From: Streptantibioticus ferralitis
GTDB lineage: Bacteria; Actinomycetota; Actinomycetes; Streptomycetales; Streptomycetaceae
Direction of reading: 5' to 3'
NCBI RefSeq assembly: GCF_029223525.1
Contig: NZ_JARHTQ010000005.1
Location: 310,001-374,000 of the forward strand
Length of the DNA: 64,000 bases
Shown here in pieces: positions 15,262 through 59,190 of the stretch. The translations under genes and the position numbers were made by a program. Position 1 is the first letter of the stretch. Each line of letters starts with the position of its first letter. The notes under the pieces are model-generated. The model ran no database searches and had not been told where the DNA came from. It saw only the letters and a list, made by a program, of their open reading frames with translations.

Positions 15262-15294
15262 GCAGGCCCGCGGGATCGCATCCCGCGGGCCTGC
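15262..15294. terminator. Hairpin terminator of GH18-CBM gene
   Basis: A perfect 14-bp stem (GCAGGCCCGCGGGA at 15262-15275 pairing with 15281-15294) and a 5-nt loop, 36 bp beyond the minus-strand stop codon of the chitinase. Confidence 0.8.
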
Positions 15295-22076: not shown

Positions 22077-22108
22077 CGACGGTCCCCGGCAGTTGCCGGG
22101 GACCGTCG
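22077..22108. terminator. Hairpin terminator after polyhistidine gene
   Basis: A 15-bp perfect inverted repeat (CGACGGTCCCCGGCA at 22077-22091 with 22094-22108) separated by only 2 nt, 28 bp past the stop codon. Confidence 0.8.
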
Positions 22109-31873: not shown

Positions 31874-32183
31874 GAACTCTCCTTGTATGGAGGGAAGTCG
31901 TACTCAGACGACTGCGGCGATCCCATCTGGCAGGTCATGACCAGGACAAGAGTGTTTTGTTTTTACTATCAAATGCTTTACCTCCCTGCGTGATTATTTG
32001 CCCTCTAATGACCACTCCTTGACCGGAATTCACCTACGAAGCGGGACATTCGACCCTGTGGCGGCCCCCCTGGCCGTACTCCAAGGCGTTCCACGGCAGT
32101 TCCCGGCCACCTGCCCCAACACACCGCTACCCCGGTGGGCGTGATCGGGAATCAGCCCTCGCCGGGCCGGTTCAGCGCATGGC
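31874..32183 (-). promoter_or_regulatory. AT-rich upstream region of sedolisin 1
   Basis: No gene lies between the two S53 genes. The part at about 31950-32020 is strikingly AT-rich for this genome and should carry the promoter. On the minus strand it contains GGTAAAG (plus-strand 31976-31982), 103 bp before the start codon; the same heptamer occurs 109 bp before the secreted aminopeptidase start at 52402. Confidence 0.4.
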
Positions 32184-32222
32184 ACCGGGCCCCGGCCGCA
32201 TGGAGCGCGGCCGGGGCCCGGT
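32184..32222. terminator. Hairpin terminator after sedolisin 2
   Basis: A perfect 16-bp GC stem (32184-32199 with 32207-32222) and a 7-nt loop, 18 bp beyond the stop codon of the minus-strand S53 gene that ends at 32240. Confidence 0.85.
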
Positions 32223-32239
32223 GTACTACCTGACGGACG

Positions 32240-37045: not shown

Positions 37046-38275
37046 CTACCGCACTGCGGGCAGCACCCGGCCGGTGACCTCGCCGAATCCGATCCGCTTG
37101 CCGTCCGGAGCCGGTGCCCACGCGGTGATGGTGACCTCGTCGGCGTCCTCCAGGAAGGTCCGGGACGCTCCGCCGCCAAGGCGCAGCGGATCACGGCCGT
37201 TCCAGGTCTGCTCCAGCAGGCAGCCGCGCTCGTCGTCGCCCGGACCGCTGACCGTGCCGGAGGCGAAGAGGTCGCCGGTGCGCAAGGAAGCGCCGTTGAC
37301 CGTCATATGGGCCAGTTGCTGGGCCGCCGTCCAGTACATCGCGGCGAACGGCGGACGCGAGATGACCTCGCCGTTCAGCGCCACCTCAAGGCGCAGGTCC
37401 AGCCCCCACCCCTCGGCCTTGGCGTCGTCGAGGTACGGAAGCAACGGGGCGTCCCGGGGCGGCGGTGCGACCCGTGCGGCCTGCAGCGCGTCCAGCGGAA
37501 CGATCCACGGCGAGACCGACGTCGCGAAGGACTTGCCGAGGAACGGTCCCAGCGGTACGTACTCCCAGGCCTGGATGTCGCGCGCGGACCAGTCGTTGAC
37601 CAGGCAGACACCGAAGACATGGTCGGCCAGCGCGTCCAGCGGCACCCGCTCCGCCTGCCGCGACGGAGTGCCGACCACGAAGCCGACCTCGGCCTCGAAG
37701 TCCAGCCGCGCCGAGGGGCCGAAGACCGGCTCGGGATCATGGGCTGCCTTGTGCTGACCGGCCGGACGTACGACATCGGTGCCCGAGACGACGACCGTGC
37801 CGGCCCGCCCGTGGTAACCGATGGGCAGATGCTTCCAGTTCGGCGTCAGCGCCTCGCCGTCCGGCCGGAAGATCCGGCCGACGGTCGTGGCGTGGTGCTC
37901 ACTGGCGTAGAAGTCCACGTAGTCGGCGACCTCGAACGGCAGTCGCAGCACGACCGCCTCCAGCGGGTGCAGCAGCGGTTCGACGGTCCGCCGGTGCTCG
38001 GGCTCGGTGAGCCATTCGGTGAGCGCACCGCGCACCCGCTGCCAGGTCTGCCGTCCCGCCGCCATCAGCGGATTGAGCACCGGATGCGCCAGGAGTTCCG
38101 CGTCCTCGGAGCCGAGGGCTCGGGCGGCGGCGCCCGCGTCGAGCACATGGTCACCGATCCGGACGCCGATCCGGGGTGATCCGGGGGCGTCGGCGGTGGT
38201 GAAGACCCCGTAGGGGAGATTGTGCGGGCCGAACGGGCCGCTTACGGCCGCATCCAGTGGGCTGACTTCGGGCAT
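37046..38275 (-). CDS. fahA: Fumarylacetoacetase
   Basis: Cytoplasmic hydrolase of 409 residues that splits fumarylacetoacetate into fumarate and acetoacetate, the last step of tyrosine breakdown. The full two-domain length fits. Signatures are ADYVDFYASEHHATTVGRIFRPDGEALTPNWKHLPIGYHGRAGTVVVSG, whose HH supplies the catalytic histidine, then the metal ligands in FEAEVGFVVG and CLVNDWSARDIQAWEYVPLGPFLGKSF. The ATG at 38275 begins the family homology. No other tyrosine-pathway genes are adjacent, which is usual in streptomycetes. Confidence 0.94.
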   Translation of the reverse strand: MPEVSPLDAAVSGPFGPHNLPYGVFTTADAPGSPRIGVRIGDHVLDAGAAARALGSEDAELLAHPVLNPLMAAGRQTWQRVRGALTEWLTEPEHRRTVEPLLHPLEAVVLRLPFEVADYVDFYASEHHATTVGRIFRPDGEALTPNWKHLPIGYHGRAGTVVVSGTDVVRPAGQHKAAHDPEPVFGPSARLDFEAEVGFVVGTPSRQAERVPLDALADHVFGVCLVNDWSARDIQAWEYVPLGPFLGKSFATSVSPWIVPLDALQAARVAPPPRDAPLLPYLDDAKAEGWGLDLRLEVALNGEVISRPPFAAMYWTAAQQLAHMTVNGASLRTGDLFASGTVSGPGDDERGCLLEQTWNGRDPLRLGGGASRTFLEDADEVTITAWAPAPDGKRIGFGEVTGRVLPAVR

Positions 38276-38698: not shown

Positions 38699-39235
38699 TC
38701 AGTCGCGGGTGACCGGCGCGTACTTGTATCCGACCCGGCGGACGGTGACGATGCCCGCCCGGTGCTCGGGGCCGAGCTTGCGGCGCAGCCGTGCCACATG
38801 CACGTCGACGGTGCGGCCGTCACCGACATGGCCGTAGCCCCAGACCGTGTTCACCAGTTGGTCACGGGTGTGCACCCGGTGCGGATGGGCCACCAGGTGT
38901 GCCAGCAGCTCGAATTCGAGATAGGTCAGATCCAGCACACGGCCGTCGATGCTCGCCGTGCGGCGGTCGAGATCGATCTGGATCGGATCGTCCGACTCCG
39001 CGGGCCCGGCCGCCACCGAAGGTGGGGCCTGGTCGGCGGGGACGAGGACCAGATAGCCGACCATCGGCGGCTGTCCGGCCACAGCGGGCAGGGTGTGTCC
39101 GGGAGCTGGCATCCAGGTGGCGCCGGGCGGCAGGAAGTCCGGCGCCGGAACCACCTCGTCAGGGCGTACGGCGCGCAGCCGCTGCCGGGCCGGTACGGGG
39201 GCGTGCAGGGGCTGGGTGTTCGAGATGTTCGACAT
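38699..39235 (-). CDS. OmpR-type winged-helix DNA-binding protein without receiver
   Basis: A 178-residue protein. The C-terminal half (about 85-178) is a typical OmpR/PhoB winged helix: LDLTYLEFELLAHLVAHPHRVHTRDQLVNTVWGYGHVGDGRTVDVHVARLRRKLG followed by VRRVGYKYAP. The N-terminal half is Pro/Ala-rich and does not contain a phosphorylatable receiver domain, so activity must be controlled some other way. No kinase gene is nearby. The ATG at 39235 is supported by an AGAGCCGAG site. Confidence 0.85.
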   Translation of the reverse strand: MSNISNTQPLHAPVPARQRLRAVRPDEVVPAPDFLPPGATWMPAPGHTLPAVAGQPPMVGYLVLVPADQAPPSVAAGPAESDDPIQIDLDRRTASIDGRVLDLTYLEFELLAHLVAHPHRVHTRDQLVNTVWGYGHVGDGRTVDVHVARLRRKLGPEHRAGIVTVRRVGYKYAPVTRD

Positions 39236-40196
39236 GGGGTCTCGGCTCTTTCGCGCGAAGGGGACGCATGGACGTCGTGCGCGGGGCCGGGCGGTGACGA
39301 CGGCAGTGGCCGTTGACGGTTCAGCCGTGGACGCGGGCCCGCGCGGAGGTCGCGCGGCAACACAGACGGTCGAAGTGGTGCGCCTGCCGGGACGGCCAGA
39401 ACGGCTCAAGGTCACTACGACCCGTCGCGGTGTCAATCAAGCTGGCCATGGCCCCATTGAACCAGAAGGTGTGTATCCATCGCGCGAGTTGATGCGGTAC
39501 GCATCTTTCCGGCCGGAAATCCGGCCGGAAAGAGCACGGCCCACACCGCCCCCTCCACGAACTGCCCACAACGACGGAGCCATCCGTTTTGCCGCGATTC
39601 TCCTTACTATCTCCACCCGGCGGAGCGCCGCCGCCACCGGCAGGTGTGTGAGGCGCTGCTTGACTTCCGCTCGGCGCGGCCGGCCTGGGACCAGGCGGTC
39701 GGCCGGGCCCGCGCGGAGCCTGTGCGGCACCGTGGTCCGTCACCCCGGGCGGGTGAACTCGCCAAGGACGCACTGACCTTGACGGGGCGTGGCGGGATGC
39801 CACTGGAGGCTCATCTGCCGGGTCGCGACGCGCCGCCGGTAACCGGAGGCCGACGCGTTCACCGTGGCGCTGCGCTCGGCGACGGCGTCCGGGGCCCAGG
39901 CGATCCGCGAGCGCCGGGCCCCTCTTGGCGACGGCGCACCCGAGGCGCCGAGGGCGCTGGCGCGGCGGAACGGGGACGGCCCGCGGACCCGGTGCCGGCA
40001 CGGGCCGCGGAGCCCATCACGGAGGCGCTCGAAGACCTGGCGCCCCGGCCCCTCGACGTCAACTGCCGTACGGGGGAAGGATGATGCGGGCGCCGCACGG
40101 GGGAAGCGGCGCCCGACACGGCAAGCATAGCGGACTGATGCCCCTTACATCTACCCCCGTCCGACGTGACGCCCAAGACACCGGGAACGCGATGGT
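39236..40196. other. Gene-poor kilobase with palindromes
   Basis: No gene with a ribosome site and recognisable product. A plus-strand frame at about 39644-40084 (MCEALLDFRSARPAWDQAV...) continues in a neighbouring frame as AFTVALRSATASGAQAIRERRA, and may be a decayed gene that I cannot identify. A notable tandem palindrome lies at 39504-39533. Confidence 0.5.
39504..39533. promoter_or_regulatory. Tandem palindromic operator-like site
   Basis: Two identical 10-bp palindromes TCCGGCCGGA at 39508-39517 and 39520-39529, spaced 12 bp centre to centre. Together they form a 13-bp perfect inverted repeat (39504-39516 with 39521-39533). This is the form of a cooperative repressor site or a hairpin. 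It lies 270 bp upstream of the winged-helix gene. Confidence 0.55.
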
Positions 40197-41423
40197 TCAG
40201 CGGATCGGCAGACCCGAGATGGTGCGGGCGATCACCAGTCGCTGGATCTCGCTGGTGCCTTCGAAGATGGTGTAGATGGCGGCGTCCCGGTGCATCCGCT
40301 CCACCGGGTACTCACGGGTGAATCCGTTGCCGCCGAGGATCTGCATGGCCGACGCGGTGACCCACTTCGCCGTCTCGCCCGCATACAGCTTGGACATCGA
40401 CCCCTCCGCGGCGGTGAAGGGCTTGCCCGCGGTGGCCATCCACGAGGCGCGCCACACCAGCAGCCGGGCGGCGTCGATCCGTGTCCGCATGTCGGCGAGA
40501 GTGAAGGCCACGCCCTGGTTGTCGATGATGGGGCGGCCGAACTGGACCCGGGTCTTGGCGTAGTCGAGGGCGACCTCGTACGCGGCCCGGGCGATACCGA
40601 CCGCCTGCGCACCGACCGCCGGACGGGAGGCCTCGAAGGTGGCCATCGCCGCGTTCTTGATCCGCTCGCCGCCCGCGCGCTGCTTCTCCCGGGCGCGGGC
40701 CAGCCGCTCCTCCAGCTTCTCCTTGCCGCCGAGCAGACAGGAGCCCGGGACCCGCACCTGGCCCAGGACGACCTCGGCGGTGTGCGAGGCGCGTATGCCG
40801 TGCTTCTTGAACTTCTGCCCCTGGGACAGGCCCGGTGTGCCCGGCGGGACGATGAACGACGCCTGACCGCGGGCGCCGAGTTCGGAGTCGACGACCGCGA
40901 CGACCACATGGACGTTGGCGATGCCACCGTTGGTGGCCCAGGTCTTGGTGCCGTTCAGCACCCATTCGTCCTTGGCCTCGTCGTAGACCGCGCGGGTACG
41001 CATGGCGGAGACATCCGATCCGGCATCCGGCTCGGAGGAGCAGAAGGCGGCGACCTTCACATCGTCGGCGGTGCCGAACATCTGCGGGACCCAGGTGCCG
41101 ATCTGCTCCTCGGTGCCGTTGGCGAGTACGCCGACGGCGGCCAGCGTGGTGCCCACGATGGACAGGCCGATGCCGGCGTCTCCCCAGAACAGTTCCTCCA
41201 TGGCGACCGGGATGCCGAGGCCGGTCGGGTCGAAGAACGCCTGGGCGTAGAAGTCCATGGAGTACAGGCCGATCTTGGCGGCCTCCTGGATCACCGGCCA
41301 CGGGGTCTCCTCGCGCTCGTCCCACTCGGCGGCGGCCGGGCGCATCACATCGGCGGCGAAGCCGTGCACCCAGTCGCGGACCCCCTTCTGGTCGTCGTTG
41401 AGCTCCAGGCCGAAGTCGCCCAT
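40197..41423 (-). CDS. Acyl-CoA dehydrogenase
   Basis: FAD-dependent acyl-CoA dehydrogenase of 408 residues. Family signatures are [19 protein letters not shown] for FAD and substrate contact, [27 protein letters not shown], and the C-terminal [31 protein letters not shown], whose FEGTSE glutamate is the usual catalytic base. The chain-length preference cannot be told. It is divergent from a TetR gene with a palindrome between them, so it is probably induced by an acyl-CoA. The ATG has GAGGGG 4 nt upstream. Confidence 0.93.
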
Positions 41424-54917: not shown

Positions 54918-56660
54918 TCAGAACAGGAAGTAGCGCTGGGCCATGGGCAGTTCGACGGCCGGTGCCGGATCGATGGCCTCCCCGTCAATGCGCACCGTGA
55001 AGGAGTCCGGGTCGACGTCCACCCGCGGCAGCGCGTCGTTCTCCCGCATGTCCGCCTTGGTGACCGCGCGGGTGCTGCGGATGGCGGCGAACCGTTTGCC
55101 GAGCCCCAGCCGGTCCACGAGCCCGTCGTCGAGCGCCGTCTGGGTCACGAAGTTGACGGAGTTGCCCGACGGTGCCCGACCGGTCGCTCCGAACATCGGC
55201 CGCGGCAGCATGGGTTGGGGGGTCGGGATGGAGGCGTTGGCATCGCCCATCTGCGCGTACGCGATCTGCCCGCCCTTGATGACCAGTTGAGGTTTGACGC
55301 CGAAGAAGGCGGGCTCCCACAGCACCAGGTCGGCGAGTTTGCCCTCCTCGACCGAGCCGATCTCGCCGTCGAGGCCCTGGGCGACCGCGGGGTTGATGGT
55401 GTATTTGGCGACATAGCGACGAACCCGGTGGTTGTCCGCCCTGCCGTCGCCCGGTAGGGAGCCGCGACGCCTCTTCATCACATGGGCGGTCTGCCAGGTG
55501 CGCAGCACGACCTCGCCGATCCGGCCCATCGCCTGCGAGTCCGAGGAGATGATGGATATCGCGCCGAGATCATGCAGTACATCCTCGGCGGCGATGGTGG
55601 ACGGCCGGATACGGGACTCGGCGAAGGCGAGGTCCTCGGGCACCGTCGGGTTGAGGTGATGGCAGACCATCAGCATGTCGAGGTGCTCCTCGACGGTGTT
55701 GACGGTGTGCGGACGGGTGGGATTGGTCGAGGACGGCAGTACGTTGGGCCGGGAGACCACGGTGATGATGTCCGGTGCGTGTCCGCCGCCCGCGCCCTCG
55801 GTGTGGTAGGCGTGGATTGCGCGTCCGGCGATAGCGGCCAGGGTGTCCTCCACGAACCCGGCCTCGTTCAATGTGTCGGTGTGCACGGCGAGTTGGGCAC
55901 CGCTTGCTTCGCACACCGTCAGGCAGGCGTCGATCGCGGCGGGGGTGGCTCCCCAGTCCTCGTGCACCTTGAAGCCCAGTACTCCGGCGCGCAGTTGGTC
56001 GTACATCGACTCGGCGCTGACCGTATTGCCCTTGCCCAGCAGACCGATGTTGACCGGCGACGACTCCAGCGCTTCGAACATCCTGCCAAGGTGCCAGGCG
56101 CCGGGGGTGATGGTGGTGGCCTTGGTGCCCTCGGCGGGTCCGGTACCCCCGCCGACCAGGGTGGTCACGCCCGAGGCCAGCGCTTCGTCGACGATCTGCG
56201 GGCAGACGAAGTGGACGTGTGCGTCGATGGCACCGGCCGTGATGATCTTGCCGTTGCCCGCGACGATCTCGGTTTCCGGGCCGATGACCAGCCCTGGGTG
56301 AATCCCGTCCATCGTCTCCGGATTACCGGCCTTGCCGATGGCGGCGATACGTCCATCACGGATGCCGATATCGGCCTTGATGATGCCCCAGTGGTCGATG
56401 ATCACCGCGCCGGTGATCACGGTGTCCGGCGCGCCCTGGGCGCGGGTGACCCGGGACTGTCCCATGGACTCGCGGATCACCTTGCCGCCGCCGAAGACCG
56501 CCTCGTCACCGCTGTTGCCCGGTCCACCGGACAGGTCGCGTTCGATCTCGACCAGCAGATCGGTGTCGGCGAGCCGGATGAGGTCGCCGGTGGTGGGTCC
56601 GAACAGGTCGGCGTAGACGGCACGGCTCAGCCGGATCGGCTCGCGCAGGGAGTCAGTCAT
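54918..56660 (-). CDS. ureC: Urease alpha subunit
   Basis: Catalytic subunit of 580 residues that hydrolyses urea to ammonia and carbon dioxide. The nickel-bridging lysine to be carbamylated is in [12 protein letters not shown]; nickel-ligand histidines are in [12 protein letters not shown] and [14 protein letters not shown]. The flap histidine is in [23 protein letters not shown]. All active-site residues I can check are present, so an active enzyme is expected. It overlaps ureB by 8 bp. Confidence 0.97.
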
Positions 56661-58999: not shown

Positions 59000-59190
59000 G
59001 GCGGACGCCGAGTCCTGCCGCCGCCTGGATGCCGAGTCGACGCAGCAACGGCAGGAGCGGAGGACCCGAGCAGTACGGGGTCGTCCGGGAAACCGAGGAC
59101 GGTCCCTCGGGGTGAAGCCGCCACGGCGGCCGGGCAACTTCGCCAGCCCGAACCCGACAGGCCACCCTTCGTAGGCGGACGACGAAGGGG
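59000..59190 (+). ncRNA. c-di-AMP riboswitch (ydaO-yuaA type)
   Basis: The leader of the NlpC/P60 gene matches the conserved pieces of the ydaO/yuaA aptamer (RF00379) in order: GACGCCGAGTCCTGCCG at 59004-59020, GGGAAACCGAGGAC at 59087-59100, CTCGGGGTGAAGCCGCC at 59106-59122, GCCGGGCAACTTCG then CCCGAACCCGACAG ending near 59160, and GTAGGCGGACGACGAAGGGG ending at 59190. In streptomycetes it represses cell-wall hydrolase genes when c-di-AMP is high. Here the aptamer's end overlaps the ribosome site (GAAGGGG), 6 nt before the ATG. Confidence 0.85.

Follow-up and report, generated by a model that had tools for sequence, protein, structure and literature searches.

The palindrome pair and its neighbourhood

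The window, a stretch of 64,000 nucleotides from Streptantibioticus ferralitis, carries at 39504-39533 a perfect inverted repeat, TCTTTCCGGCCGGA-AA-TCCGGCCGGAAAGA, whose 14-bp arms (39504-39517 and 39520-39533; no strand assigned) are separated by a 2-bp AA spacer. On one side of it lie an overlooked small open reading frame of 42 codons (39321-39449, minus strand) and, downstream of that, the gene for a receiver-less OmpR-type winged-helix protein (38699-39235, minus strand), which has a Trans_reg_C domain only. On the other side lie what is left of a FUSC-type membrane transporter gene, a 3′ remnant with a frameshift (39608-40127, plus strand), and a hairpin element (40087-40153, minus strand) downstream of an acyl-CoA dehydrogenase gene. 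As the first-pass annotation of this region had reported, the repeat contains two exact copies of the 10-bp palindrome TCCGGCCGGA (39508-39517 and 39520-39529) that are 12 bp apart from start to start; the 13-bp inverted repeat that it also described is indeed an inverted repeat, with arms one base pair longer than it had given and the 2-bp spacer between them. The copy nearer the small gene forms a 14-bp perfect palindrome, TTTCCGGCCGGAAA (39506-39519, again with no strand assigned). Single copies of TCCGGCCGGA are not rare, with a third exact copy at 37860 and 16 sites in the window at up to one mismatch against 8.5 expected; it is the pair that is rare. Long inverted repeats are in themselves no rarity in the window: eight distinct sites have arms of 11 bp or more with spacers of up to 10, and in three of these the arms are at least 14 and the spacers up to 4, a class for which 40 Markov simulations gave three in total. 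Other inverted repeats without mismatches, whose arms are 15-17 bp long, lie at 15262-15294, 22077-22108, and 32183-32223 and are perhaps terminators.

The kilobase around the repeat had been described as unusually gene-poor, and so it appears, although it is in fact occupied by the small gene and by the remains of a larger one. Both same-genus genomes available for comparison, G002 and G001 (Streptantibioticus rubrisoli), have an intact gene of 686-732 codons upstream of, and divergent from, the OmpR-type gene, and the G001 protein matches the Pfam families FUSC_2 and FUSC. Because window positions 39613-40159 align to the 3′ part of this transporter gene, and codons 568-728 of the G002 transporter match positions 39608-40114 by tblastn across a shift of frame, what remains here is a stump: the transporter gene has been truncated and lacks approximately its first 560 codons. 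The stretch upstream of the stump, including the repeat, has been kept in the window.

A conserved small gene upstream of the OmpR-type regulator

The small gene (MASLIDTATGRSDLEPFWPSRQAHHFDRLCCRATSARARVHG) has the repeat on one side and the OmpR-type gene on the other. It is conserved at every Streptomycetaceae locus examined, 110 in all. These loci comprise 30 from a genome search and 80 from a contig scan, with genomes that partly overlap; a scan requiring a motif in the OmpR-type gene skipped 10 of the 110, and a second scan recovered the small gene there. Its core, GRxDLEPFWPSRQxHxFDRxCCRA, is conserved at the protein level: 81 distinct 22-codon cores yield 40 distinct peptides, and the mean variant fractions at codon positions 1, 2, and 3 of these cores are 0.08, 0.05, and 0.18, a codon-position pattern of the kind that coding sequence shows. 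Among 149 sampled genomes of the phylum, four carried the small gene, all of them from this family. The protein had no match in Pfam or NCBIfam, and a literature search for strings of the peptide found no paper. The first-pass annotation had suggested an unseen small RNA as a possible target of the palindromes; a hidden element is there, in the form of a small protein-coding gene. Rfam gave no match at gathering score within 39200-40250.

Directly before the small-gene ATG is a conserved block, TTCTGGTTCAATGGGGCC (39450-39467, minus strand), which takes the form TCTG.TT.AAT.G at most loci and places TTSAAT 6-7 nt before the ATG; at zero mismatches, the block pattern together with the ATG is found nowhere else in the genome. 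Judged by its letters and position, TTSAAT looks like the −10 element of a leaderless transcript, with a partial fit to consensus. A study of S. lividans (PMC8079986) gives the −10 consensus as TAnnnT, and leaderless transcripts are common in that organism. Folding of the small-gene leader revealed no unusual stability (z 0.36), a result that lends no weight to classical attenuation. The small gene is similar to the leader peptides with cysteine codons that precede actinobacterial cys operons (Seliverstov et al. 2005, PMC1262725) in having Cys-Cys near its end, in preceding another gene, and in being possibly leaderless, whereas it differs from the peptides described there in being longer (~40 codons), in the conservation of its central protein sequence, and in being followed by an OmpR-type gene and not by a cys gene.

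The OmpR-type protein is itself widely conserved, with relatives in all 150 family genomes searched (E<=1e-15; some are likely paralogues), identities of 88-92% in G001 and G002, and of at least 72% at all 30 loci fetched. Directly before the start of its gene is a palindrome, TTCGCGCGAA (39250-39259), followed by AGAGCCGA on the minus strand, an element kept in most of seven aligned loci. What we have here is a strongly conserved small gene, as yet without a Pfam or NCBIfam model, that precedes an OmpR-type regulator gene in Streptomyces and relatives, and we consider that it merits more attention than the repeat, whose value lies in having pointed to it and to the loss of the transporter gene.

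Distribution of the repeat within the genome and among relatives

The genome-wide scan proposed in the first-pass annotation located the exact pair at a single place in the 8.8-Mb genome, with no other pair at one or two mismatches; at three mismatches there were eight further places, compared to 12 for the reversed control. A regulon of such pairs was accordingly rejected, there being no excess over the control at up to three mismatches in the genome itself. The 14-mer TTTCCGGCCGGAAA likewise occurs exactly once, as it also does in G002, there at the orthologous position; relaxed to two mismatches, it has 29 genome sites against eight for the reversed control. When single palindromes at up to two mismatches were inspected at 14 loci of the three same-genus genomes (L157-L170), they shared no common promoter or gene context. 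Across 394 family genomes, pairs at up to two mismatches were found at 15 places in 15 genomes, compared to eight control places; a crude ORF scan put the 13 from outside the genus at a mix of ORF-internal, gene-end, and other positions, at least four of them terminator-like in lying directly past ORF ends. These mixed contexts rule out an operator widespread across the family. An operator that acts only locally need not recur upstream of other, co-regulated genes. A literature search on the letters of the palindrome returned nothing relevant among the matches listed.

Phylogenetic footprinting, also proposed earlier, was carried out on the two same-genus genomes; by OmpR-type protein, close relatives are Streptomyces sp. 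RPT161 and Streptantibioticus rubrisoli. A 22-bp core, CGGCCGGATTTCCGGCCGGAAA, is identical between the window and G002 at all 22 positions and lies at the same place, while the 38 bp adjoining it toward the small gene match at 24 positions (~63%, counted by hand on the alignment). If positions are independent and vary at the flank rate, the probability of such a core is ~4e-5, a figure that applies to a site preselected for its symmetry. In Streptantibioticus rubrisoli the core is degraded (14 of 22 positions), although both divergent genes are kept there, so that one of the two same-genus genomes has conserved it. Outside the genus, the 400 bp preceding the small gene contained no TTTCCGGCCGGAAA-like 14-mer at up to two mismatches; at three mismatches two loci had one (L083 and L120). 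The repeat is real, locally unique, and lineage-restricted. The combination that the first-pass annotation had named as refuting its proposal, a random genomic frequency together with a lack of conservation in relatives, is not what was observed, as the pair is unique and one of the two same-genus genomes keeps it. In G002 it lies between two divergent starts, with the centre of the core ~68 bp from the start of the small gene and ~75 bp from that of the transporter gene; a comparison of this 231-bp divergent region with plasmids gave no match.

Interpretation of the repeat and competing explanations

The repeat is probably an ordinary regulatory site (or an RNA hairpin) that has been kept in one of two close relatives. 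Between these, our preference goes, tentatively and with a confidence just short of even, to a lineage-specific binding site for a dimeric regulator in a former divergent promoter region, in which the protein binding, the promoters, the regulator, and its mode of action are all putative. Such a region would have the FUSC-type transporter gene on one side and the small gene with the OmpR-type gene on the other, and two dimers could sit side by side on the two palindromes, whose starts are 12 bp apart. Dyad symmetry is present upstream of the small gene, where the conserved −10-like block suggests a promoter, and both transporter starts, in G002 and G001, have TATGAT 6 nt before the ATG (read by eye). 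Both G002 starts thus look leaderless, with −10-like boxes 6-7 nt before the ATG, and because of this the putative regulator would be placed upstream of both −35 regions, as expected of an activator or a dual regulator and not of a roadblock. The first-pass annotation had taken the pair for a cooperative repressor site. A site for a dimeric regulator is still the best reading, with the 22-bp core in G002 in its favour, and simple steric repression is not its obvious mode since the repeat lies beyond the −10-like block, 55-84 bp before the start of the small gene; activation or dual control would fit better. The deletion that truncated the transporter in the window would, by removing the 5′ part of that gene, have left the regulatory site facing the small gene only.

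The main rival is an RNA stem, which we consider unlikely yet deserving of serious weight: the repeat would be a terminator without a U-tract, or a stabilising stem in a 5′ UTR, that shields the small gene from upstream transcripts. On each strand the repeat forms a G+C-rich stem with a short loop (−29.2 kcal/mol, z ~ −6). Many loci outside the genus, with other neighbours, have strong hairpins in this stretch before the small gene (at G017, for example, a 12-bp hairpin and then TTCTCTTTTC at −90 to −58), and the similar pairs past ORF ends elsewhere in the family also speak for an RNA stem. Many Streptomyces terminators lack a U-tract, and the repeat resembles them in its strong, perfect, G+C-rich stem with a short loop and in occupying a spot at which relatives carry hairpins. 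It differs from them in that it is not at a gene end, in that its stem is shorter in the relative, and in that the hairpin of the upstream gene lies elsewhere. A U-tract is missing here on either strand, the stem being flanked by UUU on the 5′ side and AAA on the 3′ side both ways; no intact gene ending within 500 bp before the repeat was identified on either strand of the window, where the upstream same-strand gene ends 664 bp from it; and that gene, the acyl-CoA dehydrogenase gene, already has a conserved hairpin of its own near 40087-40118. In G002, where the site lies between divergent starts with no gene end in need of a terminator, the 14-bp palindrome is complete, but the hairpin stem is disrupted at its outer end, leaving 8 bp that pair and a folding energy of −23.1 kcal/mol (for a sequence slightly different in length from that of the window). 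A kept palindrome with a broken stem is slightly more in line with a DNA site than with an RNA stem. We also counted stems of at least 12 bp within 150 nt of the small gene in 100 distinct upstream regions, of which the window is the hundredth with, by this count, a 13-bp stem. There were none at the 16 loci with an intact divergent transporter gene and 33 at the 83 other loci, the latter made up of four of nine with a co-directional acyl-CoA dehydrogenase gene and 29 of 74 with other or undetermined neighbours. Hairpins therefore go with places where a terminator could make sense, and the arrangement of G002 is not such a place. Together with the kept 14-bp palindrome, as seen in two sequences, this distribution appears to favour a DNA site.

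That the repeat is a chance tandem palindrome in G+C-rich intergenic DNA, functionless and common to G002 by descent, strikes us as improbable. It is confined to two of the three same-genus genomes and degraded in Streptantibioticus rubrisoli despite the same genes, and words of the CCGGCCGG type are common in the genome, as the excess of relaxed 14-mer sites indicates; set against this are the uniqueness of the exact pair and the identity of the core beside a far more variable flank. Those same observations, with the single genomic occurrence of the exact 14-mer, support the binding site that we prefer, and what counts against it is that the repeat is carried by two sequences only, that there is no second site of equal architecture and the Streptantibioticus rubrisoli core is decayed, and that some of the similar pairs outside the genus directly follow an ORF. 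The first-pass annotation had linked the repeat to the OmpR-type gene, which is the nearest regulator, ~270 bp downstream and transcribed in the same direction, and autoregulation by its product was the corresponding proposal; we regard this as very improbable. OmpR-type winged helices usually read direct repeats, which counts against such a reader, and the protein is conserved at loci outside the genus where the repeat is absent and in Streptantibioticus rubrisoli where it is degraded, the site being kept only in G002 among its relatives.

Compared to the divergent regulator/transporter operators of the TetR, MarR, and LysR types, the preferred binding site is likewise palindromic, intergenic, located between divergent starts (in G002), and beside a membrane transporter gene. 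It differs in that no such regulator is encoded directly beside it, in having as partners a small ORF and a gene of the OmpR type, and in its tandem palindromes 12 bp apart. A literature search combining FUSC, Streptomyces, and divergent operators returned nothing specific among the matches listed. On its own, the repeat would count as yet another local operator. A more ambitious version, which is doubtful, has it as a switch through which a putative regulator jointly sets the FUSC-type exporter and a leaderless transcript for the small protein and the OmpR-type protein, with the pair as a recent, lineage-specific input and the small gene as the conserved part; the Cys-Cys small protein would then possibly be a thiol- or cysteine-sensing leader.

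The element downstream of the acyl-CoA dehydrogenase gene (40087-40153, minus strand) consists of TATGCT and then the strong hairpin GGGCGCCGCTTCCCCCGTGCGGCGCCC with loop CTTCCCCC, and is also found in G001, G002, G007, G017, and G028. It is probably the terminator of that gene or, alternatively, a small RNA with its own promoter; Rfam did not confirm a tentative identification of the hairpin near 40100 as 6C RNA. Elsewhere in the window, Rfam matched the 5_ureB_sRNA family at 56185-56475 (plus strand, 70.4 bits), possibly only urease coding sequence, and a c-di-AMP riboswitch at 59100-59160 (plus strand) with a score just above gathering (38.3 versus 38).
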